Shown in pieces: positions 192 through 63,437 of a stretch of 64,000 nt of DNA. Source of the DNA: Tribonema minus. Taxonomy: Eukaryota > Sar > Xanthophyceae > Tribonematales > Tribonemataceae. The notes under the pieces are model-generated. The model made no database searches and was not told where the DNA came from. It saw only the letters and a list, made by a program, of their open reading frames with translations. The stretch's first letter is position 1. Each line of letters opens with the position of its first letter. A program made the position numbers and the translations under genes. The stretch is from contig JAFCMP010000029.1 in assembly GCA_017506865.1 (NCBI GenBank), positions 372,001-436,000 of the forward strand, in the 5' to 3' direction.

Positions 192-3100
192 CTCATTGAA
201 GTAGTACGCCGCAGCGTCGAGCAGCCAGTACAGGTCCCGCTTCTCGTAGCACGCCTTTACGCCGCCGTCGTTCCACAGCGCCGTGATGTCGTCGGCGACG
301 TCCTGCACGCAAGCGCAACAGGTGACGCACATGCGTGAACTTCAATTTGATGCTATTGCAGGGCGAGTGCGACTTCAAAGTTGCGCGTCAGCTTGTAAGA
401 TGATGCACTGACATTGACGACAAACAGCGCGGTGATGTAGCGACATCAGGTGACGCATTCGGTGATCTTCAAGTTGATGCTGGTAAGACTTCAACTTGTG
501 TGTGAGCTTTTGAGAAGGTTGAAGTAATATGCCGACGTTGACACATAGAACGGTGATGTTGTCGGCGATGTCCTGCGCGCCAGCGCACCACGGAGACGCA
601 TTTATGCAAACTTCAAGTTGAAGCTAGAAAGACTTCAACTTGCGTGTGGGAACTTGCGGTGATGAACCGAGACAACTAATTATGTGTGCGTAAACTTCAA
701 GTTGCCATGAATGTTTGATATTGTCGGCAGCGTCCTGCACGCAAGCACGACCAGGTGATAATTTGCTTGAACTTCATGTTGATGCTGTGGTGCGAGTAAG
801 ACTTCCAAGTTGCGCGTGACCCTCAAAGATAGTGTGCCGACATAGACACAAGGATTGAGCAAACGCGTTGAACCCGCTTCAGTTCATGGTCTCGTGCCCC
901 CCCCCCCCCCAATCCCTGCCGCAATGACACAGGAAAGGCAAGCAGGGAGTGCTGTCACCTTTGTTGAAGCGAAGTCACATCACTGCGACAAAGAGCAACT
1001 GACTGCCCGAGTCAACAGCACAAATAAGGCTCCCTGATTGCGGTACAGAAGCAACTCAACAGCCCCCCTTACCCCCCCCCTCACCCCCAACCCGCCCCAG
1101 CCCCCCACGATGATAGGTAGCGACAAAAGTTGAACAGGGTCGGGTGAGCTGGGGGGGATGCTCACCTTTGTCAATGCGGAGTCCTCCGAAAGGCCGATGA
1201 TCCGTGTGCGCGCCGCAGCTTTGGCCTCATCCTCCAGTGGGATGCCATATACCTTCATGGCCTGTGAGTGGCGCCACGTGTTCAGGAAGACAGAAGCCAC
1301 ATAATTGTGTCAGAAAAGCTTACGCACTCAAGCAAGATTGTATCACACGTGCAGGTACCACACGTTCAAGGACAGCTGCGGCGGAGGTAATAGTAGTCGA
1401 AGAGTCGTTGAGCAGTGAGTGCTGCTGAGCGCTGCTTTGAATGCATCAGCTCGTGGCCTGTCCTTGTCGCTGAACGTTGTTTTGGACGCATCAGCTCGTG
1501 GCCTGTGATTGTCTGGTGGCAAAAGGCCAGTAATTGCGGCCACACAGTGTTGATAATTGAAGGTCAATTGTAGTTGAGTACACAAGTTGTTGTATGCGTA
1601 CATGCCTGCACGCTAGTGTCAGCGCAGTGCACAAGTGCAAAAGTGATGGCCGCAGGTCACTCGCAGCAGCAGAACCATGCTGTGTGCGACAAGAGAGAAC
1701 TGCAACTTCAAGTATGACGTTAGGTTGTATGGCGATCCAATTGTTTAGAAAACAACTCGATCATGCCATTTGCTTTCTGTACAATTGCTCTTGACTGTTG
1801 CCCACCACTGTTTGCTACCCCATTTGTCCCTGCCCAGCAACGCCACTTTTTGAAAAGTACTTCTGAAGTAGATACTTGTCAATCTTATTCACCCAAAACT
1901 TCACATTCTATACCTCAAATACCCGTGACCAATGTGTCTCTCGACAGGTGTCGCATCAAAACGCCAGTGCATGGTATGTATTGACTCGCATGCCTATACA
2001 TACCCAATGTTACGATGGGCATACCATCACACCCACCCTGCCCCCACATCACCAGGAGGCTCTTCCACCAAGGCCTGCCCACTTTACTTTCCGCGATTAC
2101 AAAACGCACAAAGGGTGCACGCGTCCGATTAACACTGCCGTCATGCACCATGCACGCGTGGCATTAGGGTAGTTCTGTCTTCATGACAGGCGCCACGTGT
2201 ACATAGGTGTGCCAACCAGTGTCTCCAGTTCGCTACACATGATACTGCCACCCAGGCCGTAGAGCATGATATGGGTCATGGTATGTGCCATGCGAGACGT
2301 ACAAGACAGCTTCAAACATAGTTAAAAGTCTCTATTATTGAAGTACGCGACATGGTGCACTTTTGTGCTTCCATGTACATTGAATCTGAGCACTGTCATC
2401 ACTGTCCACTGCAGAGGCACTTGAAATGCCCACTAAAACCATTTATTTTTGTGGCTGCGCTCACTAGAGACATTGCCTGCGTGCTCTCTCTGTGGCATCC
2501 CTCGGTGCTTTAATTGCCCGCCTAATCAACGTCATGAAGTACGGTGGTCGTTAACTTCAAGTTGCAGCAGCGCTCACCTGCAGAACCGCCTGCATGCTCT
2601 CTACAGCATTCATATCTGCTGTGCAATTTTTTTTTTTCACCTTACCACCTCGTCGCGATCCTGAAAGTGGAACTGTTGCAGCGCTCACCTACAGCAGCGC
2701 CTGCATTCTCCTTTTGGCGTCCCAGCGTACAAGCTAAATCATGATCGTGAATTCAAATGCGAAATCTGCAAGAAATGTGAACTTGAAGTTGCGGCAACGC
2801 TCCCTGCAACACCGCCCGCATTCTGTTCATGACATCCCCGGTGTACATACAGATTGAATCATGATCGTGAATTCAATTGTGAAATCTGCAAAAACTGAGA
2901 ACTTGAAGTTCTGCATGCATTCTCCCCATGGCATCCCCTGTGTGCCACCTAAATCGTGACTGTGAATTTTGAACGTGAAATTCATCTGCGACGATTACGG
3001 CAGCGCTCACCTGCAGCACCGCCTGCATGCTCTCTATGGCGTTCCTCCGGATGGCCTCCACGCATTGCCGCACGTCCTGCGCCGACATGCGCCCCTTGTA

Positions 3101-4885
3101 TATCATTCGCACCTACGCCGCGCAATATAGCGACCACGAAAAGTCAGTGCAACAAGTCAGTTCAGTGCGCGGGTTGAACTTGCTGTGAACAAACACAAAA
3201 CCCGTGCACACGAGCTTGTGGAGCTTGTATATCATACGCACCTGACACCGCCCGGCGAGGCGCAACAGAAAACAACAACAGAGCGACCGCAATAAGTCAG
3301 TTCAGTGCGCGGATGGGACTTGGTGGGAATGAGCACAGAAACTGCGCGGATGGGCTTGTGGACATTGCATATCATACGTAGCTGCGCCGTTCAACGAGGC
3401 GCAGGCGGTGAGTCCATGTACGGATGGCGGTTGGTGTTCATCACTAGTACAGTGGTGTTCATTGCAAGTACAGTAAGCAATTTGCATAGGAGTACAACGT
3501 TTGACCGCACCGGTGCTTGGCTACGATCATCGCAAACGGAAGGTGACATGAAAGCTTTTCGTATTGCTCTTTTACAATCATACTAGCACAAATATTCGAT
3601 AGACTTACTTAATTCAAGTTTTATTCGTGAAGTCAGTGCTCCACAAGTGTTTCTGCGCAACAAAGGGGCGATGTGCTTGCATTGCCGCGCGCACTGCACT
3701 GCGAACGCACACCTAGATGTTGCGCTCTGGAATAGGCAGAGCTGCCCGTATACTTGCAGGCGATAAATTTGAGGTACGCGTCGCTGATGTTTTCAGCTTC
3801 GCAGGCGGAGGACGAGCCTCAGAAGTCTACGAGGCGGGGGTAAGTTCTCAAAATATGAGCAACTAGCGCAGCGGTGCGATTACCTAGTACCCCACACGCT
3901 CGCAGTCTTTCTTGAAGCAATCACTGAGAGAGGCGACGGACAGAAAAACGAGGAGGACTACCGGACTGCTTTGGAGGAGAAACACGCGATAATTCATAGA
4001 GTCAAAGAGGAAATGCCATCCATGAACACGTCGAGCGTGCGCTCCTTGACCGAGTAGTGCTACACCTAAACTGAAAAAGCACACGGTATTTTCTCAGGGC
4101 GTACTTAGAATTATTGCCATTTAATCCCCCCGGAATGGAATCTGGCCACGTGAACACTGCCGCAGTCTGCTTAAGCAAAGTACTGGCAGCGAAACCGTGC
4201 TTTCAGCGTGGTGCGAGATGCTGCAGTGATGTCGCTGCTGACATATGGTCGAAGACCAATGCCGCACTGCACGGACTTCGCCACTGAAGCTAATGAAAGC
4301 ACATGACACAGCGGAATTCCTCCACACTGAGGTCAGCTTGCTGTGCTTTGCCGGGGTGCAGTCGCCGCAGCTGTTCTATCTTGTCGTGAGATAGGCGCGT
4401 GACGGAGAAGCTCGAGGGCAGATAACGACCGCCTAACTACACGACCCACGGCCGCCGTTGATACAAAATGAGCCGATGTTATATCAGCAAGTGAAGCGCA
4501 GCACCTGCGCCTCATCACGCACGGCGCCACAGGGAAACATAGCCTTTGTTTATCATGGTGGAGTTGATGTTTACCTGCTTGAGAACAGTTGATTTGCCGC
4601 TCTCTCCCGCCCCCAGTAGCAGAATCTTGATATTCTGCAGCTGCTGCTCATCTGAGACAAGCGAGCGCCAGGCAGTGCGACTGCATCAGGCGTTGCTGAG
4701 GACCGTGTTAAGCCGAGGTTTTAAACGCATGCAGGCGCCAGCGAGGGTGGCACACAATCGTCGCACAGTTGGGTAAGGCAGGAGCGCATGAGCGTGCTCA
4801 TTTTCCACCCCTGCCACACGTCAATTGACCGCCATGCTTCAAGCTGGGGCTACGTCGCACCTGACGAGGACATGCACAGCCCCAT
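192..4885 (-). CDS. Heterotrimeric G-protein alpha subunit, 5' part of gene (partial)
   Basis: This is the GTP-binding alpha subunit of a heterotrimeric G protein, which relays receptor signals at the plasma membrane. Exons, minus strand 5' to 3': 4885-4861, 4651-4575, 3112-3011, 1261-1166, 302-192. All phases close (1, 0, 0, 0, 0), giving the first 137 residues. Exon 1 is a 25-nt microexon reading MGLCMSSS, with Gly2 and Ser6 fitting the N-myristoylation rule and Cys4 a likely palmitoylation site. Its ATG has A at -3 and G at +4. The P-loop GAGESGKST lies at residues 22-30. It is followed by KQVRMIY and the helical-domain segment LWNDGGVKACYEKR...AAYYFNE, which aligns well with animal and plant G-alpha. 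Length and spacing match the family except for a short N-terminus (about 14 residues shorter before the P-loop than G-alpha-i). The catalytic Arg/Gln and NKxD motifs are off the window. Introns carry many copies of the exon edges (see repeats). Family assignment is very secure. Exon 1 is an inference from phase and motif. Confidence 0.9.
405..765 (-). repeat. Three degenerate copies of the G-alpha exon 5 acceptor edge
   Basis: The segment over the acceptor and first codons of the exon at 302 (cgtgatgtcgtcggcgacgt on the plus strand) recurs at about 425-455, 548-600 and 715-765. Each copy is followed by a similar ctt-caa/ttgatgctg spacer. On the minus strand each copy offers a CAG followed by a GACATCGCC-like start. 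Spacing is about 125-165 bp. Confidence 0.7.
2450..3395 (-). repeat. Copies of both edges of G-alpha exon 3
   Basis: The donor edge of the exon at 3112-3011 (plus strand cagcgctcacctgcagcacc followed by gcctgcatgctctct) recurs at about 2455, 2567, 2688, 2797 and 2905, a ladder of roughly 100-120 bp. The acceptor edge (plus strand cttgtatatcat followed by acgcacc) recurs on the other side at about 3223-3245 and 3365-3388. The copies decay with distance, and several keep the GTGAGC donor. Confidence 0.75.
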
Positions 4886-7928: not shown

Positions 7929-7959
<31 letters not shown>

Positions 7960-10900
7960 CTGCGCGGGCAGCGGGCGGCGCGGGCGATGATGGCGGCACA
8001 AAGCGCGGACGGACTCGCAGTCACAGGTGCGCTGAGTGCGCCATTACTAAAACCTAGTATGCGTGCAGCGCCAAGCTTGATGAAATGTAGGGTTGTTGCT
8101 TGAGCGCTGAGGGATGGCTGCAAGGCGGCGGCAGCGGCGGCGGCGGCGGCGGCGGGGGCGACTGCGCTTCCTGCCGCCCTGCCGCCGCCGCCGCCGCGCA
8201 CTGCTTCGCCAGGCAGATTTTAGTCACAACGCGCCTGAGCTGCACGTGTGTGGCACGACCGAGCGGGCTCCTGCGACAGCACTGTGTGGTATGGCGGCGG
8301 TGGTTCTGTGGCGTTTGACAGCGGCGATGGTGGCAGCACTAATACGGCGGAGGGGGGGCGCGCGACAGGGGCAGGTGCGCTGGCGCTGCGGCGACAGCGG
8401 AAGCGGAAGCGAGCCGCCACCGGCGACTGTGCTGCGCTTGAGGCAATCGTGTATTGAGACGGCTGACGCTGTTGTCGGCTGTACCCGGTCACGGTTGATA
8501 TTCGGCTCGGTTGCATCGATCGCTTGGAACTGATCGTATTTTAATGGATTATAGACGATCGGTCCCAACAAGTTGCCCTGATCATAATATCCCTGGCGTC
8601 CGCGTCTGGAGGCGGGCGCGTGATTGCGAATCGCGCGTGCAGCACGCGTGCGCGCTTGTGGTTGTCGCGATGTGCCGTCGCTCGCCCCGTGGCGCGGAGT
8701 GCACGCGGGCCTTACACCACCAGTCCGCATGAACTAGTGACGAGGCCAGCTGTGATACTTGCAGCTCTGCTGTGGTATGGAGGCCCGTCCTGCACCTCAA
8801 GCAGCAGCGGCGCAGATAACACACACTTCTGGAAGGGGAGACCGTGCGGGGCAGCCCCGGTCCGCACAGCTGTCCCGCAGCAGCACTCGTCGACTCCACT
8901 TCCTTGCAACCGCTGAGAAACCTCAAGTTCAGGCAGCAGCACACTGGTAGCAGTGCAGGTGCGGCCGAGGGCGCACGTGCAGCGGCAGCCTGGCTGCAGC
9001 CGCACGCGGTCCTCTCGCTCCTCTCGTGTACCCATCCCAAAGTGCCGCCTGAGCATCGCTCCTTGTGTGAAACTGTCACACGACCGCCGCTGCGACTGCA
9101 GCTGGAGCAGCGCGACCAGCAGAGGCAGCAGCACGCAGCAGCAGGAGCACCGACACCAGCGGCAATCTCTTCAGTTATCCGATCCGGTACACTTCGAAAC
9201 ATGCAGTTTTAGCAAGGTACCTCATGCGTGTCACCGGCGTGTGTCTCAGGCTGCAGATACAGCAGCGCTCAGCGCTTCACCGACGACTTCAGCCGTCGGC
9301 AACAGCCATACTCAGGCTCTCAAAGTGACGAAAACAGCAGGGTGACTAGCACAACACCTGCGGCCATCTGATCAGAATCGCAGCATCGCTCAGCCACTCC
9401 GACATGCCATCTGAGCCTCTTGCTTTCCCCACATGCAAAACTGTCGCGGCACGCTCTTTGCGGCTGCAGCTGGAGCAGCGCGACCAGCAGAGGCAGCAGC
9501 GCGCGCAGCAGCAGGAGCGCTGACACCAGCGGCGGCGGGTTAGGGTTAGGGTTAGGGTTATCTCATGCGTGTCACCGGCGTGTGTCTCATGCAAAACTGT
9601 CGCGTCTTCGCGGCTGCAGCTGGAGCAGCACGACCAGCAGAGGCAGCAGCGCGCGCAGCAGCAGGAGCACTGACACCAGCGTCGGCGGCGGCGCGCGCTC
9701 GGGCCGGCGGCGGCGGCAGCAGCGGCGGTCCCCGAGCAGATCGCACAGCAGCAGTCGGGGGGGGGGGCGCGCCAGCCGGCGCAGCTGGCGGCCACGAAGG
9801 TAACATTTACCCAAACCCTAAGCTTGCATGCGGTTGTTGCTGTGTTTCTGTGTGTTGTGGCATTTCAAAGCGATGCGCATGCTCTGCCTGGCGGAGCCGT
9901 CTGCGGTATCGCCGAGCTTCAGGTCTTTGATGGCAGCACGCACTTTCTGCGGCGAACGTAACCATGGTCGTTTCCAGATGCAAGGCGGGGGCGCGCCAGC
10001 CGGCGGCGCTGGCGGCCACGAAGGTAACCCTAACCCTAACCCTAAGCGCGCATGGGGGTGTCACTGCCTTGGTGTTGTGGCACTGGAGGAGTGCGGCGCG
10101 CACGCTTGAGTTAGGGTTAGGGTTAGCGCGTGGGGTTGCCACTGCCTTGGTGTTGTGGCACTGGAGGAGTGCGGCGCGCACACTTGAGTTAGGGTTAGGG
10201 TTAGCGCGTGGGGTTGCCACTGCCTTGGTGTTGTGGCACTGAAGGAGTGCGGCGCGCATGCTTAGGGTTAGGGTTAGGGTTAGGGTTAGGTTGACGGAGC
10301 CGTTTGCGGTACCACTGACCTTAAGGTCTTCCATGGAAAGCCACTCTGTTTGCAGCAAACGTAGATCTTCGTTTCCGTGTACGTGGGGAGGGGGCGCGCC
10401 AGCCGGCGGAGCTGGCGGCCACGAAGGTGAGCGTGCATGGGGTTGCTTCTGTCTTCTGTTGTGTTGTGGCATTGGAGAACAGCGGCGCGCACGCTTTGTG
10501 TGGCGGAGGGCTTCGGCGCATGATTTTAAAGTTATGGACAGTGTAACCCTAGCCCTAACCCCAACCCTGCGCTTAAAAGGTCTCCACTGGAAAGACACAC
10601 TGTCTGCGGCGAACATAGACCATGCTCAATTGCGAGGTGCACGACAACTGTGCATGCCGACAGTGGTGATATTTGTGCGTGCCCTGCAGCTGCGGCACAG
10701 CTCTGGGGTCGACGCGCTGCTGTTTGCAGCAGCGAATGTCGAGCACCACGCATGCTGATGTCATGCTCTCATTGACAAACAGCAACAGCCTTGTTGCCTT
10801 GCCAGCAACTCTTTGGCTTCAGTTATGGTCACAACGGTGCGACTTGTGTTTATTACAAGTGAAGTCCACCATTATTCAATGATACATACTTACCCATGTC

Positions 10901-36200: not shown

Positions 36201-36469
36201 CGAAGGAGGACACACCCTGGACGTCTTCCGTGCAGCTTTGCAGCGCCGCCACGCCTGCTGCGGTCGTGGGCGCCAGCGCGATCCGCCTGGCTGCAGGAGT
36301 GACGTTCATTGCGCCTGGACGTGCTGCTGCAGAGGGGGCGCGACGAAAGCGGGCATGCTTGTTTGAGGATGCTCAGGCTGTACATCAAGCTGTACAGCGG
36401 CATGTTGAACCAGAGCACGGGGCAGGCCTTACCTGTGTCGCGCACGTCGATGAACCAAAGCGAAGAAGC
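33274..36469 (-). CDS. Gene A: membrane protein of unknown function, paralogue of gene B (partial model)
   Basis: I do not recognise the family. Exons supported by splice signals and by similarity to gene B: 36469-36433, 36314-36216, 35996-35952, 35624-35482, 35173-35002, 34418-34297, 34010-33876, and a terminal 33360-33274. Seen segments: ASSLWFIDVRDTG, MNVTPAARRIALAPT, DDQLADGCNKENEPR, a hydrophobic stretch GTAPLTALTVTICALFGLVF (one TM segment), then LTSKMEPAPAIGIAKVQLAV, LLGLPPAQLYAETSS and a compact GTFLRAYGGWLNVQFDNGMV module. Phases close within 36469-35952 and within 35173-33876. Junctions into 35624, into 35173 and into 33360 do not close, so exons are missing or mis-set. The donor at 33875 is GC (CAG|GCAAGT). 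The acceptor at 35625 has a 22-base C-run. The 5' end was not found. Conservation of exon phases with gene B argues for a real gene. Confidence 0.55.
35634..35655. repeat. 22-base G homopolymer (C on the coding strand) before a gene A acceptor
   Basis: On the minus strand this is a C-run ending 4-5 nt before the CTTCAG acceptor of the exon at 35624. It probably acts as the polypyrimidine tract. Similar runs lie at 42343-42365 (gene B), 46239-46254 and 46669-46688 (NicO gene), 60356-60373 and 61739-61761 (J-domain gene introns, G on the coding strand). Confidence 0.85.
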
Positions 36470-51078: not shown

Positions 51079-54000
51079 ATGAAGCTGCCAGCAGCAGCCC
51101 GAGCTGCTGCCTCTAGGTGGTGTCACGTGCGCGTTAGGTGCAGCGCTCGTAACAGCACCTCCACCAGCGGTGCACAGCTGTGCAGGCACCTGGGTTCACG
51201 TTCAGCGTTAAATCTTGGTGGATTCTCGACAGGACTCTGGCACGGCCGTCGAGCGTGTGGATGCCACTTCGATGGCGGAAGGCGGTCATGGTCCACCTCG
51301 CTCTCGTCAGCAGCCCCACAGACGGTCGACGGCGGCCTGCACGAGGGATCGCCAGCTGACCCTGCAGCAGAAGCGGTGCCTGCAGACAGCAGCTTCGCGG
51401 ACGTGATGCCCCTGGAACACAAGGATGTCGTGCGCCTCATGAGAGTGGAGGGGCGGAAGGGCAACTGGAAGTCCGTGCTGAACCTGCTCGATGAGGCGGA
51501 GGCGGGCAGAACGCCTGTGTCCCTGGGCCTGTACAACGCCGCCATCGCGGCGGTGGGCTCCACGGGGCGCTGGCAGGAGTCGCTCAAGGTGCTGTCGTCG
51601 ATGCGGTCCGAGGGCCCCGTGCCGGACTCCATCAGCTACGACAACGCCATCGGCGCGTGCACGCGCGCGGGCATGTGGGAGAGGTCCATCGAGCTCCTCC
51701 TCGAGATGCAGGACAGGGGGCTGCGCCCCACCTACTTCAGCTTCAACTCGGCGATGCACGCGTGCGGCAAGGCCGGCAACTGGGAGCTCACGCTGCACCT
51801 GCTGGAGCGCATGGGCGACTTCGGCGTCGCGCCCACGGCGATCAGCTTCAACACGGCGATGAGCGCGTGCGCGCGCGCCGGCGAGTGGCGCCGCGCCGAG
51901 GCACTGCTGAGTCAGATGCGCGCCGCCGGCCTGCGCCCCGACACGGTCACGTACAACGCGCTCATCAGCGCGTACGCGCGCGACGGCGACGTCGCGCGCG
52001 CGCGCGCCGCGCTCGCCGCCATGTCCGAACTTCAACTCCAGCCGGACGTGCTCAGCTACAACGCGGCGCTGCACGCGTGCGCCGTGCGCGGCGACGCGGT
52101 CGCGGCGATGGAGCTCTTCGACGCGCTGCGCGCCGCCGCGCCGCGCGGCGTCGCGCCGACGGAGTCGACGTTCGACGTCCTCGTGCGCGCGTGCGCGCGC
52201 GCGCGCGCGACAACGCCCGCACCCTCGCCGCCCTCGAGGCGATGCGCGCCGCGGGACCGCACGCGGCGCGCCCGGACACGTACGCCGCCGCCATCTCGGC
52301 GCTCGCGCGCGGCGGCGCGTGGCGCGAGGCGCTCGACGCCTTCGACGAGCTGCGCGTCCACCCCGGCGCGGCGCCGCAGCTCGCCGCGTTCCTCGCGGCG
52401 GTGACGGCGTGCGGGCGCGCGCGGCGCTGGCCGGAGGTGGTGCGCCTGCTGCGCGAGATGCGCGCGCGGAAGCTGCGGCTGGGGGTCCACGTCATGAATA
52501 CGGCGGCGGCGGCGGGGTGAGCCCCCTCACCTTCACCCTGACCCTGGTCCTAACCCCAGGACTGGTATGTGCATGTGGCCTCCGTTTCATTTTATACTAT
52601 TCCATAGGTGGTGTGCCTGCTGGGCAAGATGTGCGCGCGCGGGCTGCGGCTGGGGTCGATGCCATGAACACGGCGGCAGCGGCGGGGTGAGCTGATAACG
52701 AGTGCCTTGGGTGTAGATGCAGTATCTTGCTGTCGGGTGAGCTGATAACGACTGCCTTGAGTCTAGGTGCAGTATCTTGTTAGGGGGCTGCGGCTGGGCG
52801 CCGACGCCATGAACACGGCGGCGGCGGCGGGGTGAGCTGGCGGGTCGTGACTTCTGCCTTGAGTGTGGAAGTGGTGACGTTTGCTGTTGCTTCTCCTGAG
52901 AAGCCTGTGCCTCTATGGCGATGATTGCTTTGGCATACGAGTCAGCACGATCGCGTGGGTCAGTGACCTCATTGCGAGCACGCAGACATGCTTCAAAAGC
53001 CTTGTGCGTCGACGTGCGGCCCTTACCCTCTCTGTCAAACCTCAGCCTGCTCGGCGGGCGAGCTATCAACGCTGCACACGGCCTGGCATATCTATACTTC
53101 ACTGTATCAATGACCACGTGGCGGGTGTGCGTACCCACAGGCGCCAACCTTACTGCAATGCGCCGTGGTACACACTGGCTTCACTGTGTCAGCAACCCCC
53201 ACGTGGCTGCTACGAGCTCCCAACTTCACTACCACGTGCTGTGCGCCGCCGCAATGCACAGCTGCACATCACTGCATCGCTGACCACGTGGCTGGTGTGT
53301 GCGCCCCAGAGGCTCCCGACCTCACTGCGGCGCGCTGTGTGCCACCTAACCCTAACCCTAACCCTAAGCCCTAACCCGCAATGCGAAGCTGCGTGGCAGG
53401 GCTCCTGACCCCACTGCGGAGCTTTGTGTGCCGCCTAACCCTAACCCTCACCTTAACTCCAAACCCTAACCTTAAACCCTAATTTGCAATGCGCAGCTGC
53501 GTTGCGGGCGAGCGGGCGGCGGCGGAGGCGCTCGTGCGCGAGATGACGGCGGGGGAGGGGGAGTGGGGGGAGGCGATCAAGGCGGACACGGACACGTACA
53601 ACACGCTCATGGCCGCGTGCGCAAAGGTGGGTCTGGCCTAACCCTTATCTTAGGGCGCGGGCAGTGGCGGCTGCGATGCGCGGCGTGTGGAGCGTTGCTA
53701 CACTCATGGCCGCGTGCGCAAAGGTGGGGGTCGGACCCAACCCTAGCCCTAGGGTGTGGGCAGTTGCGGTTGCACTGTGCGGCATGAGGAGCGCCGCACG
53801 CCCGCTTGCTGCGGTGTGTCGTGCTGCAGTGAATGCTGGGTGTATGAGAGTGAAACCGAAAGGGGCAGAGAGAATGTCATCGCGGCTGATGAAGTGCCGA
53901 CACAAGGAGTGGTGCATCACGCGCTTGCGCTGCGCAATGTTTTCCGGCGCAGCCGCTGCAGCGCCGTGCGCGCTACGGCGGATGCAGACGTGAGGGCTGC

Positions 54001-55112
54001 GGCTGTTGCAGTGTCCAGTGAGTGGAGTGCCACGCGCTTGAAGTCTGCAGCTGCTCAAATGCAGATTTGTGGAGGTAGCCACGAGGAACCCCACGTTGCC
54101 GCGGAATCGCACTTGAAGTACAGCTGAACTGTGATCGCTGCCTCAACAAAACGGAAGTCAGTGCACCCTTCCTTTGGCTTGCGGCTAGCACCGTGTATGC
54201 GTGCACCCCTTGATGGACTTTCTTGCCGAACCGCATCCGCTTACAATCCACTAGAACCATGTGGACCACATTATCATTAAGCCGTGTGCTTTTCATTAGC
54301 AGAATGTCAACTGACGGGGGGCGCTGCGCGCGTTTGCGGACCTCAGTGCCATGGCCTGGCGTACCGACGCCGTATCCTACACCAGAACGCGTTGCGCGTA
54401 TCACAGATCCTAGTTTCGAATGCACGATAATCATGCCCCAACGTCCGCACGCGCCTCATCTGATTCTGCTGCTGGACGCCAACTGGCAGGACCTCTGCGC
54501 CTGTTTTGCAGAACTGCGCACCAGCGGCCTGCGCACCGACGCCGTGTTCTATCCACGCCAGAACGGGTTGCGCGCATCACATCGCTCTAAGTGATACACC
54601 ATCCCAATACTCCAACTTCCAAACGCACCTCATCTGACTCTGATGTAGGACGCCGATTGGCCGGGCGCACGGCACCCAGTTTTTGTTGGTGCTTACCATG
54701 CTGCCAGCCGTCAGCCTGCGCACCGATGCGCCATCTTACGTTATTCCACAACAAAACAGGTCGCGCTTGATCTCAACACCCAGCGTCCGATCTGCCTCTG
54801 ATGCAGGACGCCGACTGGCAGGGCGCGCTGCGCCTCTTTGCGGAGCTGCGCACCAGCGGCCTGCGCACAGACGCAGTGTCCTACAGCTCTGTGTTGTCCG
54901 CATTGGAGCGCGGACGCGCGCCCGCGGAGGCCGCGCAGCGCGTCATGCACGATCTGGAGCGCCACGGGCAGCACGCGACGGGCGTCACGGGTGAGCGCTG
55001 CTGCAGCTGCCGCCGCCGCCGAGCGCTAGCCACACTATTATAATCTGTAGTATATAAGCCCCCTCTTGTGAAAGACCCCCCCATCAGGCACACGACGGGC
55101 TTCACGGGTGAG

Positions 55113-55158
<46 letters not shown>

Positions 55159-57191
55159 GCCGCCGCCGCCGCCGCTGCGCGCTAGCCGCACTACAGTACC
55201 GTATGTCAGGTGTGTTCGCCGCTGGCGCCACTCGCGGCGTTGATCAGCGCGCCCGCGCCGTCAGCACGCAATGCGCTTCGCGGGTGAGCGCTGCTGCTGC
55301 TGCTGCTGCGTCCGTCGTCGCGCGCCAGCCGCACTACCATAGATCGCGGGGGAATGAAATCCCCCTCTCGCATAAGACCCCCTTATCGGGCAGCACGTGA
55401 CGCGCTTCACGGGTGAGCGCTGCTGCTGCCGCCGCCGCCGTCGTGCACTAGGCACACCACAGAACCGTGTGTCAGGTGACCCGGCCGCTGGCGACTCGTG
55501 GTGTCGGTCAGCGGGTCTGCGTGCGTCCACGCGCCCTGACTGTCGCACAACCGTGTTCAGGTGGACATGTGCAGCATGAGACGCTGCGCGACGCCGTGCT
55601 GCCTGCGAGGCACTGGCCACACACAGCGTTTCGCGTCCCACGTCTCCACAGCCGGACGGGTGAAGCTGCTCTGCGGGTGCGCGCCGCCGCGCTGCGCGGT
55701 AATGACGTCCGCCTTCTGCTGTCGCAGCAGCCCTGAAGCGCTTTTGCTTACGCTCAATGCCGAGCGCGCGTCGTGCGCGACCTGGAGCGTCGCGCGGGCA
55801 AAAGCGCTGCCACTGCTGCTGATGACGTACGCAGTGTGGGTATGCATGTATGTAGTGGCGCTCGCCAGTCGAAGTCGACTGAGTGCTGCCGCTGCGCACC
55901 CGAGCGCTGTGCCACGGCGCACCCCTGGAACAAACTAGAGATCGCGGGGGGACCAGAAGCAATGCACGCATTTGCGCCCAGGACCCGAAGGCGAAGCTCC
56001 AGAGCAAATTAACAAAAATTCCTGAGCGCTGCCGCTGCTGCGCGCCGGCCGCACCCCCTCCCCCCCTTGCACTCGCGCTGACGACGCTGCGTTGTCAACG
56101 TGTGTCGTGGCTTGGCCCCATCGTCACTGACGACCTTGTCACAATGCCTTTCTGGACCGTACGACGTATACTTGCGTCTACATTCTGCCCTATCCCTGCT
56201 TAGCACTGCTACTCAACGTCGCCCCGCACGCGCAATACCCCCTGCTGTTCTGCTGGCAGATGCGGAGCTGTCGAAGCTCAAGCCTGTGGTGCGCGCCGCC
56301 GTGCACGCGCTGCGGCGGCAGGTGCAGCGGCACAGGGAGACGGTGAGTGGCTCATTTGTCGTGTACCCCCATGTTCAACTCCGCACATTTTGCCAAGTAG
56401 GTGCTCACTTTGCCAAGTGGGTTCTGAAGTACATCCGTCACGGAAGTACATGTCTCAGAGTGTATAGCGGTGGGTATATATACTCAGATCGTGTTGACAT
56501 GCGCGCCGCCGTGCACGCACTGCAGCAGCAGGTGCAGCGGCACAGGGAGACGGCGAGTGGCGCATTTGTCATGTGTTGTGAAGAATCATTCCGTATACGC
56601 TGCCAGGTAGGTGCTGAAGCGCATCCTTCACTGAAGTTCATGCCTCAGAGTGTATAGTGGTCGGTATATATACTTGGATCGTGTTGACGTGCGCGCCGCC
56701 GTGCACGCGCTGCGGCAGCAGGTGCACCCGCACAGCAGGGGGCTGAGTAGGGCGTGTCCATCATGCACGGCTGAATGAGACACTGCACTGCGGCGGCGGC
56801 GGCCCCCTCGGGCCGTCTACCGCCGCGACTGCGTACCAGCTCGCACGGGCTGCCTCGCCAGCAGCGCATCAGCGTGCGCTGACACCTTACCAGCATGCTA
56901 AGCATGCTGCTGCTCAACTGCCTGCCTGCCGCTCCCGCGATCGACGCTGCGCCGCAGGCGGGCCAGGCTACCTACGTGCGCGTGCGCGACCCGCAGGACG
57001 AGAACCGCCCCAGCCGCGCGCGCCACGCCGCCGGCAGCGGCGGCGGCAGCGGCGTTGCCCGCGGCGCGCGGCGCGCCGACAGGAGCGGCAGCCTCGGCAT
57101 CCCGAGCGGCGAGCGCGCGAACGCCCCCAGGGGGCAGCCGCGGGTGCCGCCCGGTCTGCGCAAGGACGGCGGCGACGGCAGCGCGCCGTAG
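51079..57191 (+). CDS. Pentatricopeptide repeat (PPR) protein, probably organellar
   Basis: This is an RNA-binding PPR protein; the family acts in organelle RNA processing and translation. Exons: 51079-52516, 53497-53626, 54807-54990, 56260-56342, 56958-57191. Junction phases close (2, 0, 1, 0). The N-terminus is Arg/Ala/Ser-rich with few acids (residues 1-60), like a plastid or mitochondrial transit peptide. About a dozen 35-residue P-type repeats run from residue about 115 into exon 3, e.g. LYNAAIAAVGSTGRWQESLK, SYDNAIGACTRAGMWERSIE, SFNTAMSACARAGEWRRAEA, TYNALISAYARDGDVARARA. Repeats continue across introns 1 and 2 (TYNTLMAACAK joined to DADWQGALRLFAELRTSGLR). Exon 4 is a basic helix. Exon 5 is a Gly/Arg-rich tail. 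One oddity: the frame shifts inside the (GC)n run at about 52182-52209, where two surplus bases separate two intact PPR halves. Removing that discrepancy gives about 688 aa and makes exon 1 end in the right phase. This is either an assembly error or a real disruption. Confidence 0.85.
52600..52840 (+). repeat. Two donor-edge copies of PPR exon 1
   Basis: The exon 1 end (gcgcgcggaagctgcggctg, then ggg-tc-acg-catgaatacg and gcggcggcgg|GGTGAGC) recurs at about 52605-52690 and 52782-52838 with the donor context kept. In both copies tccacgtcatgaatacg has become gatgccatgaacacg/gacgccatgaacacg. The second copy is truncated at its 5' side. Confidence 0.85.
53345..53482. repeat. CCCTAA telomeric-type blocks in PPR intron 1
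   Basis: Four CCCTAA units lie at 53346-53377 and degenerate units at 53438-53482, directly before the exon 2 acceptor at 53497. The intervening sequence (gcaatgcgaagctgcgtggc) is a copy of the exon 2 acceptor edge (gcaatgcgcagctgcgttgc). Confidence 0.8.
54440..54740 (+). repeat. Acceptor-edge copies of PPR exon 3
   Basis: The exon 3 start (gatgcaggacgccgactggc, then agggcgcgctgcgcctcttt) is copied at about 54470-54550 (about 75 nt, still reading ELRTSGLRTDAV) and at about 54645-54730. A fainter copy is at 54310-54375. Flanking intron sequence (cacgccagaacgggttgcgc, then gcatcac) is repeated with them, giving a unit of about 165-170 bp. Confidence 0.85.
55075..55445 (+). repeat. Donor-edge copies of PPR exon 3 with CTG tracts
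   Basis: The exon 3 end and intron start (acgggcgtcacgggtgagcg, then ctgctgc) is copied at about 55090, 55270 and 55400. Each copy carries a CTG/CCG tract of different length just inside the intron and a shared ctagccgcac tail. At 55115-55156 the tract is 14 uninterrupted CTG units. Confidence 0.9.
56490..56750 (+). repeat. Two donor-edge copies of PPR exon 4
   Basis: The exon 4 end (cgcgccgccgtgcacgcgct, then gcggcggcaggtgcagcggc and acagggagacg|GTGAGT) recurs at about 56502-56556 (donor changed to GCGAGT) and 56691-56745 (donor lost). The following intron sequence, including agtgtatagcggtgggtata, is also duplicated. Unit length is about 190 bp. Confidence 0.85.
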
Positions 57192-58789
57192 CTTTCGCGC
57201 CGTGTCGTGAGTGCGCCGGCAGCTGCGGCGACAGCGGCGGCGGCGGCGGTGGTGGCGGCGGCGGCGGTGGCAGCGGCGGCAACAGCGGCGGCGCCGGCGC
57301 TGGCGCCGCTGCGGAATTGATGTTGTAAGGGCTATGATAGCAAAGCGCGATGATGTATGTGCCCGTGCACGGGCGCGCTACCGGCATCAGCAACAGCCGC
57401 AGCAGCGTTTCAACCACGACAGGCAACATGTGCGCCAGAGACGCCAGATTTGGCACATCTTTGAGTGCAGCATGGCGGCAGTGGCAGCGGCAGTGGTGGT
57501 GGCGGCAGCAGCGGCAGCGGCAGCGGCGACTGTGTGGCACAGGCTTCAGAGGCGTCAGATGTGTCAGAGAGTCTAAAGGTACGGCAGCGGTGCCAGGTCT
57601 TTAGCACATGAGATCAAGCTCGCAACAGCACTGGCCTATCCAACTGTTGCTGCCAGATGCCAGTCCACAAGAGCTCAGTAACCTACCGTGTGGCCTCCAA
57701 TGCGCGGTGGCGGTTTCTTTTCTTGCTTTTTCCTCAAACAACCGCCGCAGCGATGCCAGCGCCGTTGCGGCAGCGCATGAAGTAGTTGTAGTGTCGGGCC
57801 TAGTAGGCAGCAGCTGCGGCTGAGCGTTGTGGCAAAGCACGGACGCGGCGCCTTTATTTCCGTGATGCTGAAGTGCCTGTGTTGCCACGCGCCTGGCAGC
57901 GCGACTGCAGCGGGGGGGGGGGGGTGACGCACCGCTGCAGCGACATAAAGGAATCATGTCAATATGGCACCTGGGCATTGCGGTGCAACGGTGTCACGGA
58001 AAGTGCAGTATGCATGCGGCACCGAGCGCTGCACTCTCGCGTTTTACTTAATTTCAGCTGTGCGCAGCCAGCGCAGGTTGTATGCGGTAACAAGTAATAC
58101 ACATAGATAAAGCTTTGTGATGACGCAGGAAGCAATGCATTTGGCCCCACAGGTCTCTTGATGATTGCCTTTATATGGGTCTTTTGGGCTCGCGTTGTGT
58201 TCCACTCAACTCATCGACTGCTCCGTCAGGCGCAGAATGGTGGGCTGTCATTTTGTTCCCTCACTTGCATGTCTAGGCTTGCATTGGCGCTACCCGCCTG
58301 TTGCAAGATGTCTCCTGCTTGTGAAATGGCAGTCAGCGATCCTGCAATGAGAAACAGCGCGCACATCCTTCGATGACCATCGTGGGAATATGAATGATTC
58401 ATCAACATGTACCCCACAACTACAGTATGAAGTTGAGCGCATTGACCCTTTCTGCTTGGATAGCTTGAAACGGACGCCAGATGCGGCTCCCTGATTGCGT
58501 TCTCGCTTGATGCTTTGTCTACGACAGGCGCGTTGATGGTGTTGACTGCCTCTCGTTTTGGAGTGTGGGCTGGCTGACGTCAGCGCCCTTTGGTCATGTT
58601 TGCAGGTAGTCATTTCGTTGGCTGCTGCTTGCAAGGTGGTCCTGTTGTAGCAGTCGTGTATTTCAACGCCATTGGCCATTTGTGCACACACGCACTTATT
58701 AGTCTACTTCTTGCCAGAACGGTCCAGGAACCTCCCCTAAGTTGAAGTTCTGTTCTTGAAGTTTCGTTCCGTTGTGTAAAGTTTCTGCC
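57192..58789. other. Intergenic, PPR gene to J-domain gene
   Basis: It begins with a (GGC)n-rich block at 57225-57305 and another at 57475-57530, probably in the PPR 3' flank. The right half is ordinary, AT-richer sequence and should contain the J-domain gene promoter. No coding region or RNA gene is recognised. Confidence 0.5.
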
Positions 58790-61700
58790 ATGCTGGCTGT
58801 GCGGAGACTGGCGTCCCGGGCAGCAGCGCCTGCTGCTGTTGGATGCCGCATCTGCAGCCGGCATCGCCGCTTGCAACAACACTGGCCACCATATGCCCAA
58901 TTCAGTCGACCTGTCGGCGCCTGTCTCGCTCGGCACCTGGCCTCCAGCAGAGGAAAGCCGCCGCCTCCACCACCCTTGGAAGGCCTTCCGTTTGACATTG
59001 ACTCCAAGGAAGCTGAAGAGAGGTTTCGAAGGTTCTGCAAGTCGAAGGGCATATCCCCGGGGCTTGCCATCAACAATTTCTTCAAGGGCAAGGCTGCAGC
59101 GGGCTATGACAAAGTCACAGCAGCCTTCGTCCCCTTCTGGGCCTTCGACTGCAACGTCAGGACGTCGGCGGGGAGGACGGTGCTGCGCGAGACCCGCACG
59201 GGCTTCTCCGAGGCCAGCATGGTCTACGGGGGCTACAGCTACCACCGCTACCTGCTGCACGCCCTGCCCTCCACGCTGCTGGGCGCGGCGCCCTTCGACG
59301 CCAAGTGGCTCAGCCCGCCGCGGCCCGTTGGCCTGCCGATAGAGGTGGACGCGTGGGGCGTGTACCAGGGGACCGCGTGGGCGGTCGCGCGCGCGGCGGT
59401 GGCGGAGCAGGAGCAGAAGCACGCTAAGGAGGCGTACGGGACGTCGCTGCCTAAGGGCGAGGAGCTGCGCTGCGAGTTTGCGCTGCACGCCGTGCGGCGC
59501 GTGCTGCTGCCCGTATACGCCTTCGAGTACTCGTTCTTCGGGCAGGTGTTCCACGTGTTTGTGAGCGGGCGGCGCGCGGGACCGGAGGCCTCGGGGATTG
59601 ACCATGGGAACCTGGTGGCGTCGCTGGGGGAGGGGGCCAAGTCCATCGGAGGGCAGGTATGCTTGTTTTCTGATGATACCTACTGCTGTTGTGACAGGAT
59701 GAGTCATTCGTCGTTTCAGTTGTGCGCCTGTGCGCATCTATCCGTAGTCTGCAAAGGTTGATATGGTATAGCTCCCTGTTGATACCCGCTGCTGGTGCGA
59801 CAGGAGGAGACATTGGTCGCTTCAGTTGCGCGCCTGTGCGCACCTATCCGTAGTCTACAAGGTCGGCTGGGGAGGGCGCGAAGTCCATCGGATGGCAGGT
59901 ATGCTTGCTCGCTGTTGATAGTCACAAACCACTTTAGAAGTTGAAGTTGAAGTTTGTAGGGGGGTCTGGCGCCGCAGTGATGCAGCTGTCGCCGAGTCCA
60001 GTTGCTGTTACGACAGGATGGGTCATTCGTCGCCTCAGTTGTGCGCATGTGCGCATCTTTCGGCAGTGTGCAAGGTTGGTGTGCTTGCTCCCTGTTTAAG
60101 ACCCACTGCTGCTGCGACAGCTGAGTCTTTCGTCGCTTTGGTTGTGCGCATGTGCGCATTTTTTTGCAGTTTGCTAGGTCGGCTGGGGAGAGTGCGAAGT
60201 CCACCGGCGGGCAGGTGTGCTTGCTCCGTTCTGAGGATAGCTTCTGTTACGATAGGGGGAGCCATGCGTCGGGGCACGCGCCAGGCTTACGCTTGTATTA
60301 GCTTGTAGCTTGTACCACGAAGACATTGCCACTGATGGTCTCAGCAAGACTTGCAGGGGGGGGGGGGGGGGGGTCAGGTATGCTTGCTTTTGTATTGATG
60401 ATACGTGCTGCCATCACGGCAGGAGGAGTTGGCTCACCAGTGGTGTGGTGCGTCACCACCCTGCGCGGCACGCAACCGCTTGATGTGTAATGCGTCACCG
60501 CTTGATGTGTGGTGCGTCACCACCCTGCGCGGCACGTAATTGCTGTATGTGTGGTGCGTCACCGCCGTGCGCGGTGCGTCACCGCCGTGCGCGGTGCGTC
60601 ACCGCTTGATGTGTGAGCGTCACCATCATGTGTGGTGCGTCACACCCTGTGCGGTGCGTCACCGTTGTGCTCAGCGCGTCACCGCCACGCCAGGCACACG
60701 GCCGCTTCCGGGAGGCGATGCGGGCTCGCACGCCGCTGGGGCGCAAGACGAGCGTTTCAAGTACTTGGTTGGTGCTGATGTTGATCTGCAACCTCGCTGC
60801 TGGCACGTGAGCGCTGTGAGACTGAGATGGCACCGCCGCCGCCGCGCTGCCAGGTGGACGGCTACTTTCGCGAAGCGATGCGAGTGCTGGCGGGCTCGGG
60901 CATCGCGGGGACGCCGCTGGGGCGTATGACCGAGTGTTGAAGTTACTTGTTGAAGTACTTTCAAATTACTTGTTTTCGACCTGCGAGGGACCGAACACAC
61001 CACAATCCTTCTGTCAAATCACGCGCGTGCTGCACTGCGCCGTCGCCGCCGCCGCACTGCCAGGTGGATGGCTACTTTCGCGAAGCGATGCGAGTGCTGG
61101 CGGGTTCGGGCATCGCGGGGACGCCGCTCGGGCGCATGGCGAGCACGTTCGCGGGGCGCTTCGTGGTATTTGCGCTGGGGACGCTCCTCACGGCGTCGCG
61201 CTTCGTCGTCGTGCGCTTCCCGCTGTTCTGGCCGGCGGCGATCGGCGGCTTCATCCTGTTCCGCAAGGTGAGCGGCAAGCGAACGCTGATGCATTTGCAT
61301 GAGGAAATCGGCACTCGTGTGGAGGCAGCATTGGTGCTGTGTCCAGCTGTGCGTCTGAGCTAGGATTACGGTTATGGTCAGGGTTCGCCTTTCGTCGTCG
61401 TGCGCTTCCCGCTGTTCTGGCCTGCGGCGATCGGCGGCTTCATCCTGTTCCGCAAGGTGAGCGGCGAGCGCTGCTGCATGCGCTGAACGAGGGAGTTCGT
61501 CGGGTACTGACAGTGAGGCAGCCATTGATCTCGCCTTGCTATGAGTGCGTGTCTGGTCAAGGGTGAAGGGAAGGGCTACGGGAAGGAGCAGAGGTGCGTT
61601 TAGAGGGATTCTGTTCCGCAAGGTGAGTGGCGAGCGAGCGCCGGTGAATTTGCATCACTGCATGAATGATCGGTGGAGGCAGCACTACCCCTACCCCTAT

Positions 61701-63437
61701 TTGTGATGGTTAAGGCATGGGAGGCAAACTCGGCACGCGGGGGGGGGGGGGGGGGGGGGGGTAATGCGTATCACTGCCGGACGTGTGGAGGGCGCTGGTT
61801 GCATGGGGAATGCGGATGTGATTGACGCCATTCTGACGGCTTTGCGTCCGCATGGTGAGCACTGCTACATCACAGGTGATCCAGCCAGTATGTGCGTGCG
61901 CTATTCGAAGGCCGCATGGCTGGGTCCGCAGAAACGGCATCATGCTGCGCTGCTGCTATGTACGCGCGCCAGGTCTACACGCCGCTGCGCGTGCACCGCG
62001 AGTCGTGGGAGGCGTGGATTCGACCTCAATACCTGCTACAAGTGCTGCGTTACATACCAGCAACGGGGCGACTTGCCAGAAAACGCACACTTACCATCGC
62101 AACCCGCACTTGTTTGATCACCACCTGGGAACTTACTCTGATTGGCCAACTGAACTACCTTGGCGCGCCAGGTCTACACGCCGCTGCGTGCGCACCGCAA
62201 GTCGTGGGAGGCATGGACAGCGCGCGCGCATGAGGAGCTCAACGCGCAGGCCGCCGCGCGCGACGTGACAGAATAATGTACTTCTTCACTTTGAAACATC
62301 ACAATCTTGTTGGATCAACATCTGAGGGTTTTCATTCTCAACTGAACCACCTTGGCGTGTGCCAGGTCTACACGCCGTTGCGCGCGCACCGCGAGTCGTG
62401 GGAGGCGTGGATAGCGCGCGCACGCGAGGAGCTCAACGCGCAGGCCGCCGCCGGTGACGTTTGGACGTGGTCGGACGAGTACCGCGCCGCTGCCGCGCGG
62501 CAGCAGGCGCGCGGAAAGCAGCAGGCGGCGCGGAACCAGCGCGCGTCGCGCTCCAAGTACGTATTCTATGTACACATGTGTGCTTTGCAAGTAGCTGTGT
62601 ACTTTGCAAGTAGCAGTATATATGTGTGCGAGCACGCGTGTGCGGGTCGAGGTGCGCAGGCGCCAGCAGGCTGCGCGGAACCAGAGCGGACCGCGCTCCA
62701 AGTGTGCGGCGCACCCAGCGCGCGTCGCGGTTCAAGGCGCAAGGTGCGTACGTACATGCGTACGTGTGTACTGGGCGAGTATACATGCGTACGTGTGTAC
62801 TGCGCGAGTATGTGTGTGTGCATGCACGCGCGCCTCGACGCACTGCCGCCGCACGAGAGTTCCCAGTTGAATTCACGTTACTCTTCTAAAACTCCGTCCG
62901 CCATCGCTTCGCCGTCGCCGCAACTGTCTCAAACGCGTTAGGGAGGCGCGCGGCGCCGCGGCACGTGTGTCCGCGCGTCACGTGCCTCCGTGGCCATCAA
63001 ATTCACATCACTCCACTAACTACAACTCTGTCCGTACTCGCTTCACCGGCGTCGCAAATGTCTCGAAAGCGGCAGGGAGGCGCGCAACGCCGCGGCACAA
63101 GTGTGCGTCACGCAACTCCACTGTCATAAAATTCACATCACACTATTCAGACTCCGTTTAAGCGCGCCGCCATCGTTCATGCCGCTTCAAAACATCTCAA
63201 ACGCGGCGCGGCAGGGAGGCGCGCGACGCCGCGGCGCGCCTCGACGCGCTGCCGCCGCACGAGATCCTCGGCGTTGCCCCCGGCGCGAGCGGCGCCGAGC
63301 TCACGGCGGCGTTCCGGCGCGAGATGCTGCGCTGGCACCCCGACATGCAGGGCGGCAAGAGCGACGCTGAGCAGGCGTACGCGCTCGCGCGCGCGCAGGC
63401 GATCACGCAGGCGTACCGCGTCCTGCGCGCCAAGTAG
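58790..63437 (+). CDS. J-domain (DnaJ-like) protein, probably mitochondrial
   Basis: This is an Hsp70 co-chaperone-type protein with a C-terminal J domain. Exons: 58790-59656, 61064-61267, 62366-62556, 63215-63437. Phases close (0, 0, 2), giving 494 aa and ending in TAG. The N-terminus (MLAVRRLASRAAAPAAVGCR) is Arg/Ala-rich without acids for about 50 residues, like a mitochondrial presequence. Residues about 70-290 form a globular region I do not recognise (FWAFDCNVRTSAGRTVLRET; VYAFEYSFFGQVFHVFVSGR). Exon 2 contributes one or two hydrophobic segments (FVVFALGTLLTASRFVVV and FPLFWPAAIGGFILF). Exon 3 is charged and Gln/Arg-rich (EAWIAR...QQARGKQQAARNQ). Exon 4 is the J domain: PPHEILGVAPGASGAELTAA, then FRREMLRWHPDMQGGKSDAE, with the HPD triad at residues 462-464. 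The order is soluble domain, membrane hairpin, linker, J domain. This suggests an inner-membrane-anchored co-chaperone, but that is inference. The start is the first in-frame ATG. Confidence 0.87.
59680..60375 (+). repeat. Donor-edge copies and spacer repeats in J-gene intron 1
   Basis: The exon 1 end (gggggagggggccaagtcca, then tcggagggcag|GTATGC) recurs at about 59867-59904 and 60181-60218, with a remnant at 60374-60384. A second element (gacaggatgagtcattcgtc, then cgcttcagttgtgcgc and tgtgcgcatctatccg) recurs four times, at about 59693, 59801, 60014 and 60115. The two elements alternate, so one compound unit was duplicated repeatedly. Confidence 0.85.
60690..60940 (+). repeat. Acceptor-edge copies of J-gene exon 2
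   Basis: The exon 2 start (tgccaggtggatggctactt, then tcgcgaagcgatgcgagtgc) is present at about 60850-60930 with only a few changes over 80 nt (open reading VDGYFREAMRVLAGSGIAGT), and as a shorter, more diverged copy at about 60693-60747. The intact acceptor at 60851 could compete with the real one at 61064. The sequence before them (60430-60690) is a separate short tandem repeat of gtgcgtcaccgc units. Confidence 0.88.
61380..61640 (+). repeat. Donor-edge copies of J-gene exon 2
   Basis: The exon 2 end (cgcttcgtcgtcgtgcgctt, then cccgctgttctggccggcgg and ttccgcaag|GTGAGCGGC) is copied at about 61388-61466, nearly identical over 75 nt with the donor intact, and as a short copy at 61610-61632. 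TTAGGG is absent here; a degenerate gattacggttatggtcaggg precedes the copy. Confidence 0.88.
61960..62262 (+). repeat. Acceptor-edge copies of J-gene exon 3
   Basis: The exon 3 start (gccaggtctacacgccgctg, then cgcgcaccgcgagtcgtggg) recurs at about 61968-62020 and 62166-62265, before the real exon at 62366. The second copy runs about 95 nt into exon sequence (REELNAQAAA region) before breaking off at gacgtgacagaataatg. The flanking caacatctg/caactgaac-accttggcg is also shared. Period is about 200 bp. Confidence 0.88.
62660..63105 (+). repeat. Copies of J-gene exon 3 donor and exon 4 acceptor edges in intron 3
   Basis: The exon 3 end (ggcgcggaaccagcgcgcgt, then cgcgctccaag) recurs at about 62674-62702 and 62710-62735. 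The exon 4 start (cggcagggaggcgcgcgacg, then ccgcggc) recurs at about 62938-62962 and 63071-63094. A gtgtgcgagcacg/tgcgtacgtgtgtactg short tandem repeat lies at 62745-62820. Confidence 0.8.

Follow-up and report, generated by a model that had tools for sequence, protein, structure and literature searches.

Genes and exon-edge copies in the window

We analysed a 64-kb window of Tribonema minus (G000:C29:372001-436000, inside a 464-kb contig), and all coordinates given without a contig name are positions in this window. Many of its introns carry copies of the exon edges that adjoin them, on the donor side, the acceptor side or both, often several in a row (here called ladders). These copies are real and extend past the window. 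We curated the exons of seven genes: a G-alpha gene, a DnaJ-domain gene and the large gene K from the window, and four chaperonin genes from elsewhere (CCT8, CCT3, CCT7 and CCT1). The curated exons came from a purpose-written gene finder, which over-predicts exons and joins genes, or from family matches, and any exon overlooked during curation would reduce the copy counts. Each intron was compared with its own two exon edges, with up to 120 nt of exon per edge. Edge counts for the window genes were tallied by hand from the rows of this search, and copy offsets in intron 2 of gene K were converted by hand to window coordinates.

The chaperonin assignments are backed by Pfam, as is that of the DnaJ-domain gene through its last exon (Pfam DnaJ, E 1.7e-10), with no match on its first exon. 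Gene K is kelch-like by eye, with no Pfam match for the two exons tested. The features of the window are as follows.

192-302, minus strand: G-alpha exon (Pfam G-alpha, E 1.4e-6, below the whole-protein cut-off); acceptor-side copies at 553-600 and 716-758 (intron 3)
3011-3112, minus strand: G-alpha exon, assigned by continuity, no Pfam match alone; donor-side copies at 2789-2824, 2678-2723 and 2567-2611 (intron 2)
4575-4643, minus strand: G-alpha P-loop exon (Pfam G-alpha, E 5.3e-7, below the whole-protein cut-off)
G-alpha intron 1, following the P-loop exon, minus strand: one weak acceptor-side copy of the next exon at 3224-3251
17373-31384, plus strand: gene K, large and unnamed, 12 curated exons; copies in 8 of 11 introns
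18932-20533, plus strand: gene K intron 2; donor-side copies at 18986-19086, 19135-19238, 19260-19327 and 19376-19451, acceptor-side copies at 20229-20299 and 20356-20450
20659-21434, plus strand: gene K intron 3; acceptor-side copies at 20903-20981, 21040-21105, 21146-21220 and 21267-21324
21602-22078, plus strand: gene K intron 4; a single copy of the donor exon at 21796-21850, short of the GT
22837-24329, plus strand: gene K intron 5; acceptor-side copies at 23704-23749, 23888-23964 and 24117-24156, their flanks without significant mutual match
25282-26849, plus strand: gene K intron 7; donor-side copies at 25454-25531, 25646-25667, 25821-25881 and 25951-26029, acceptor-side copies at 26267-26324 and 26474-26551
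27057-27992, plus strand: gene K intron 8; donor-side copies at 27133-27187 and 27266-27298, GT lost or not reached
28086-29291, plus strand: gene K intron 9; donor-side copies at 28247-28339, 28355-28442 and 28564-28631 with CCCTAA-rich flanks, acceptor-side copy at 29038-29071
29631-30586, plus strand: gene K intron 10; donor-side ladder at 29694-29779, 29792-29870, 29884-29949, 29969-30031 and 30116-30201, acceptor-side copy at 30407-30463
58790-63433, plus strand: DnaJ-domain gene with exons 58790-59656, 61064-61267, 62366-62556 and 63215-63433; copies in 3 of 3 introns
59657-61063, plus strand: DnaJ-gene intron 1; donor-side copies at 59869-59920 and 60185-60246, acceptor-side copy at 60834-60928
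61268-62365, plus strand: DnaJ-gene intron 2; donor-side copies at 61385-61470 and 61608-61655, acceptor-side copies at 61968-62019 and 62147-62266
62557-63214, plus strand: DnaJ-gene intron 3; donor-side copy at 62664-62703, acceptor-side copies at 62927-62965 and 63039-63096; aligns in the 98% identical contig C162

Extent of the pattern

A self-comparison of the window, with periods of up to 15 bp and TTAGGG masked, returned 119 local direct repeats (less than 3 kb apart) of at least 40 bits. Of local inverted repeats there was 1, and of distant direct repeats there were 7. Copies of the adjoining exon edge occur in 14 of 17 introns and at 21 of 34 edges of the three window genes. A preliminary description of this DNA had spoken of at least 20 boundaries in six genes; the window genes curated here number three. 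The four chaperonin genes outside the window have copies in 11 of 27 introns, which brings the total to 84 copies in 25 of 44 introns, donor-side in 18 introns and acceptor-side in 18. By gene, the introns with copies number 8 of 11 (K), 3 of 3 (G-alpha), 3 of 3 (DnaJ), 6 of 6 (CCT8), 4 of 8 (CCT3), 1 of 5 (CCT7, a weak copy that does not reach the boundary) and 0 of 8 (CCT1). The same search found no copies when the introns were reverse-complemented, nor when each intron's edges were tried on 10 introns sampled from other genes, a control that covered 753 kb against 75.5 kb in the real test and reused the same 37.7 kb of introns.

We also examined all ten PF00118 loci, some chaperonin stretches having been picked originally after a hint of copies among the family matches. 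As anchors we used 52 of 56 family matches, the four omitted being themselves exon-edge copies; these anchors are family-match intervals that may overrun the exon, so that a few of the copies they detect may be intron-only (one in locus L026 is, as judged by hand). Local copies were found for 24 of the 52 exon matches (76 copies in all), and none on the reverse complement. Against other loci, of which 3 were sampled for each exon, the anchors gave 13 matches; we read these as chaperonin paralogy. Among these ten loci, local copies are absent from L030 and L031, and there are hardly any in L026 and L027. In 15 sampled stretches of 6-10 kb each, we counted 135 direct repeats that are local and 2 that are far apart, along with 5 inverted repeats; shuffled sequence gave none, and 12 of the 15 stretches contained repeats. 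Given this spread over the PF00118 loci and the sampled stretches, the pattern is widespread in the sample but patchy. At a threshold of 42 bits, window positions 32000-40000 and L010, L013, L017, L030 and L031 have no local direct repeats, and only a small part of this patchiness is accounted for by G+C content (rho 0.34, p 0.050). The earlier statement that nearly every gene with definable exons shows the pattern is too strong in view of the empty or nearly empty loci and of this empty part of the window. A scan beyond the window against shuffled controls, proposed in the same description, bore the pattern out on the samples taken, with clear differences from gene to gene.

More local direct repeats lie outside the curated genes, at window positions 9221-16049, 47182-47449 and 53096-56735. 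Among kinesin motor domains, some are largely one open frame and others are split into many small exons (C116, C445 and others), and two kinesin loci show profile-level repeats adjoining an exon end (C246:701357-701488 and C511:562024-562092).

Anatomy of the copies and intron length

The copied exon part measures 18-76 nt (5-95% range; median 48), and its identity to the exon has a median of 0.906. Spacings of 75-400 bp had been described; we measured 73-343 nt plus a single gap of 711, with a median of 148. One to six copies per boundary had likewise been reported; window edges have 1-5, and edges outside the window as many as 8. The junction is crossed by 79 of the 84 copies, and the splice dinucleotide is intact in 74 of these 79. 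On the donor side, the GT is kept in 39 of 43 copies at the boundary, while 5 copies end short; on the acceptor side, the AG is kept in 35 of 36 copies that reach the boundary. The retention of AG bases (71 of 72) is somewhat above the 0.90 seen for nearby exon bases, and a copied AG may act as a decoy site. At 14 of 23 edges with multiple copies, at least two different exon-side end points are seen; therefore, the edge was copied repeatedly or the copies were cut later. A decay of the copies with distance, also claimed earlier, is weak (rho -0.23, p 0.037), the nearest copy being the most similar at 11 of 23 edges where 8.7 are expected.

Introns with copies are longer than those without (median 1067 versus 515 nt, p 7e-5), and a fit of intron length gives 607 nt with a further 131 nt for each copy (r 0.65, p 1.9e-6). 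By our coding model, 35 of the 44 curated introns are in phase 0, a share above the usual.

Copies as neutral relics

Differences between copy and exon were counted by codon position, with 1309 sites at each, giving 103, 70 and 189 at positions 1, 2 and 3. In the 23 ladders that hold two or more copies we could tell which side had changed, setting aside more complex site patterns. Changes private to a copy fall evenly on the three positions (61/53/71; chi-square p about 0.27 by our own arithmetic), with 69 synonymous and 116 not, including 4 stops; the copies thus show no purifying selection of a coding kind. Changes private to the exon are few and mostly synonymous (4/0/11 by position; 12 synonymous and 3 not). 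Therefore, the copies look like non-coding neutral relics, and the outer exon looks like the working one.

Probable growth of introns by local duplication

Almost all the repeats are direct, so that a second copy in the same orientation lies nearby, as in duplication across an intron-exon boundary. Locality, direct orientation and the crossing of the junction by 79 of 84 copies fit tandem duplication across the junction, whereas random nearby copying need not cross it. We consider it probable that introns lengthen through recurrent local duplication, in direct orientation, of segments that span the junction, with the copies being neutral and removed by splicing. Segments of about 50-200 bp across an exon-intron junction would be duplicated locally and repeatedly. 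Because a splice site would travel with the duplicated unit, splicing could go on using the outermost pair of sites and the protein would be unchanged. The extra exon edge would then remain within the intron and decay neutrally, the real exon being under selection, and this constraint would keep an exon-copy pair recognisable for longer than an intron-intron pair. Our best guess at the event itself is staggered breaks that might be repaired by fill-in and end joining. Small tandem duplications do arise by fill-in at staggered breaks in mammalian cells, according to the available portion of the report (PMC8355091). We infer both the removal of copies by splicing and this molecular event. In the break-point sequences of 15 repeat pairs, read by eye, no clear microhomology rule was apparent.

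Several observations weigh against this account in its plain form. First, the PF00118 loci differ from gene to gene in the presence of copies. Second, flanks align in just 9 of 22 copy-copy pairs whose exon parts are at most 8% diverged, and in the 23 of 71 copy-copy pairs with well-aligned flanks the divergence is 0.113 in the exon parts but 0.162 in the flanks (p 0.002). Third, 14 of 35 acceptor copies cease to match 3-8 nt upstream of the exon and none does so at 9-16 nt. Fourth, over whole alignments the intron side is only 1.4 times as diverged as the exon side (0.129 versus 0.092), and the pooled ratio of mismatches at codon position 3 to those at position 2 is 2.7, above the factor of 2 that we reckon for a constrained exon alone. 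Finally, random 65-nt units predict about 417 intron-only pairs where 31 were seen.

As to the flanks, head-to-tail units would be expected to repeat their intron part as well as their exon part. In 61 of the 79 junction-crossing copies the flank significantly matches another copy of the ladder or the real edge. The mismatch is clearest at gene K intron 5 and at the acceptor edge of CCT3 intron 4. Acceptor copies whose match ends near the splice site are not older than the others, and 13 of 48 donor copies end their match within 0-7 nt, without the clean gap of the acceptors. In young pairs of a copy and the real edge, the flank is alignable in 13 of 33. The missing flank matches could reflect later rearrangement of the spacers, gene conversion of the exon parts, or copying from the splice site onward.

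Gene conversion from the functional exon would keep old tandem copies young while their spacers drift apart, and it accords with exon parts that are closer than flanks between copies, with homology that ends at the splice site in the 14 acceptor copies, and with similar exon parts that lack a significant flank match, as at the two sites just named in gene K and CCT3. We nevertheless regard it as somewhat unlikely. At +6 to +20 and -20 to -8, close to the boundary, the intron side differs at 0.17-0.19, compared with 0.10 on the exon side; such an excess is expected if drift affects both the copy and the real intron while the exon alone is constrained, and this roughly twofold ratio is the one expected without conversion. 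When copies are compared with the real edge, the difference between exon parts and flanks is not significant (0.086 versus 0.113, p 0.23, 16 pairs). Furthermore, the copy at 62172-62264 differs at two sites between 98% identical contigs. Although C162 has the base of the exon at both, sites between and beside them, checked by hand, are still non-exon in both contigs, which speaks against one overwritten tract.

The preliminary description also proposed intron birth, in which an AG|GT exon segment is duplicated in tandem (the Rogers model). The introns do sit at AG|GT, and the model is established elsewhere, as far as the available parts of PMC4974935 and PMC3443670 go. The donor and acceptor edges of one intron are, however, no more alike than edges from different genes (mean score 16.2 versus 16.1), and the start of the intron does not resemble that of the downstream exon, nor its end that of the upstream exon. 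Old births could have decayed past recognition, but we think birth an improbable source of these ladders. Taken together, the interpretation given in that description is supported for intron growth, for which the local direct junction copies, their neutral decay and the rise of length with copy number all speak; it is not supported for birth, and plain tandem duplication is incomplete as an explanation.

Alternative or mutually exclusive exons might also keep their AG or GT and often stay in frame, as the copies do. It is very unlikely that the copies are such exons: they are fragments of 15-115 nt, in 11 of 84 the net gap is not divisible by three, and their private changes, even over codon positions, are nonsynonymous in 116 of 185 cases, four of them stops.

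A family of introners or transposons that inserts introns with exon-like ends would account for common features in many introns, for GT starting 19 of 44 downstream exons and for AG ending 33 of 44 upstream exons. We find this barely credible, and for the stretches searched we reject it on the control with other genes and on genome searches of the assembly (158 Mb, 554 contigs): the copies are private to their own exon, with no match in sampled introns of other genes. For a 6.5-kb stretch of gene K, the matches besides itself fall on its two CCCTAA-rich stretches alone (40 of 51 candidates scored), and a 2.1-kb gene K query gives simple-repeat matches and the real exon nearby only (40 of 237 candidates scored). 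These matches of gene K elsewhere, all of the simple-repeat or CCCTAA kind, are evidence against a dispersed element as the origin of its copies. Among the candidates scored for the three window stretches searched, we found simple repeats, the nearby real exon, contigs redundant with the DnaJ region and a pair of 30-33 bp matches, and no dispersed element.

Misassembled or uncollapsed tandem reads are hardly to be entertained either; repeats are difficult to assemble and the assembly does contain redundant contigs, but the median difference between copy and exon is about 9%, the differences fall on codon positions in a biological pattern, and the 98% identical C162 can be aligned through these arrays over 1.8 kb with 23 substitutions and 2 short gaps. 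The DnaJ region (window 58700-63900) recurs in C155:144719-149918 at about 100% over 5.2 kb and in C162:123401-125220 at 98% over 1.8 kb, the latter alignment covering the intron 3 arrays and the nearer acceptor copy of intron 2. Such an aligned yet diverged second version is hardly expected of an artefact, and the two contigs are perhaps haplotypes. A spacer that matches another contig was considered as evidence of a donor locus and rejected, that contig being identical over 5.2 kb.

Are exon edges preferred?

In 37.7 kb of intron, we counted 77 pairs that involve an exon edge and 31 intron-only pairs, plus 45 pairs that include an exon-edge copy. A simulation indicated that doubled divergence leaves 68% of pairs detectable. 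In place of the 417 intron-only pairs predicted from random 65-nt units, units of 148 nt with a starting intron of about 607 nt predict about 90, by our own arithmetic. The resulting preference for exon edges, about 3-fold to 13-fold, is suggestive only, because the range is wide and copies of one ladder are not independent of each other. A further idea, which we rather doubt, is this: splice junctions might be preferred sites of duplication, through copying linked to splicing, transcription or exon chromatin that often starts exactly at the splice site, and this process, rather than transposons, might largely set intron length.

Other repeats and side observations

Runs of TTAGGG/CCCTAA occur in 13 of 44 introns (33 sense CCCTAA and 27 sense TTAGGG), with 1 in 10.9 kb of exon. 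Examples lie at window positions 27471-27528 and 28086-28660, and related stretches are found in many contigs. Such runs might be scars of break repair. Telomere-like hexamers number 1.95 per kb in introns with copies versus 0.66 in others, a difference that is not significant by intron (p 0.10). The 8-mer TTGAAGTT is found 119 times against a Markov-3 expectation of 13.1 (9x), on both strands, in the window and L010-L024, at about 1.1 per kb in introns both with and without copies.

Eleven short pieces matching PsaA/PsaB are spread over C168, C490, C107, C423, C91, C85, C185, C163, C401 and C334, some with stops. Two have PsaA chains of solved structures as their best matches, and the pieces look like fragments of plastid DNA in nuclear contigs. 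A phage search with a PPR stretch found nothing.

Relation to known modes of duplication

Internal gene duplication is reportedly ubiquitous (Gao and Lynch 2009). The present case shares with that work the frequent small duplications within genes. It differs in its ladders of partial exon edges in introns, which, to go by the available parts of two articles that cite the work, were not described there (PMC4974935, PMC3443670).

Tandem duplication is an established source of introns, according to the portion of PMC3443670 at hand. In a potato gene described in the accessible text of PMC4974935, the duplicated unit crosses an intron-exon boundary and takes a splice site along, as here. However, a single event there gave a new intron and added exon sequence, whereas in Tribonema many events affect existing introns with no signature of birth. 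Duplications of AGGT exon segments, as far as the same two articles could be consulted, include that of Rogers 1989, ATP2A1 and a multiplied 24-bp exon segment in fission yeasts. These also are local, direct, placed at AG|GT and tolerated by splicing, with several copies per intron in the fission yeasts. They differ in that a purely exonic unit creates an intron, while the unit here spans an existing boundary in gene after gene.

Introners, in the part of PMC9860276 available to us, are likewise a genome-wide process that shapes introns, but they copy themselves into many genes, whereas the copies here are private to each exon. Where breaks have overhangs of some 40-50 bp, fill-in by CST-Pol alpha yields small tandem duplications and is a plausible source; according to the accessible text, that work concerned induced breaks in mammalian cells, and the spacings in the alga are mostly longer (PMC8355091). 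For an intron-rich chlorarachniophyte, the available part of the article considers intron gain at AG|GN and finds introners an unsuitable explanation of the introns compared, and such ladders do not figure in it (PMC12730881).

In the titles and openings of abstracts that we searched (the best rows of longer lists, with few subscription papers and no bioRxiv), we found no description of a genome with exon-edge ladders. Duplication across a splice boundary is already known; what we rate as new is the repeated ladders that lengthen existing introns in gene after gene. Intron growth without transposons is, to our knowledge, poorly documented. In practice, gene predictors can take the copies for exons, as our own simple finder did. 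Each ladder is a set of neutral snapshots of an exon edge lying beside the constrained original, a record that is still legible. The ladders of Tribonema are thus a natural test bed for mutation rates, for the tolerance of duplicate splice sites and for large-scale growth of introns by duplication.

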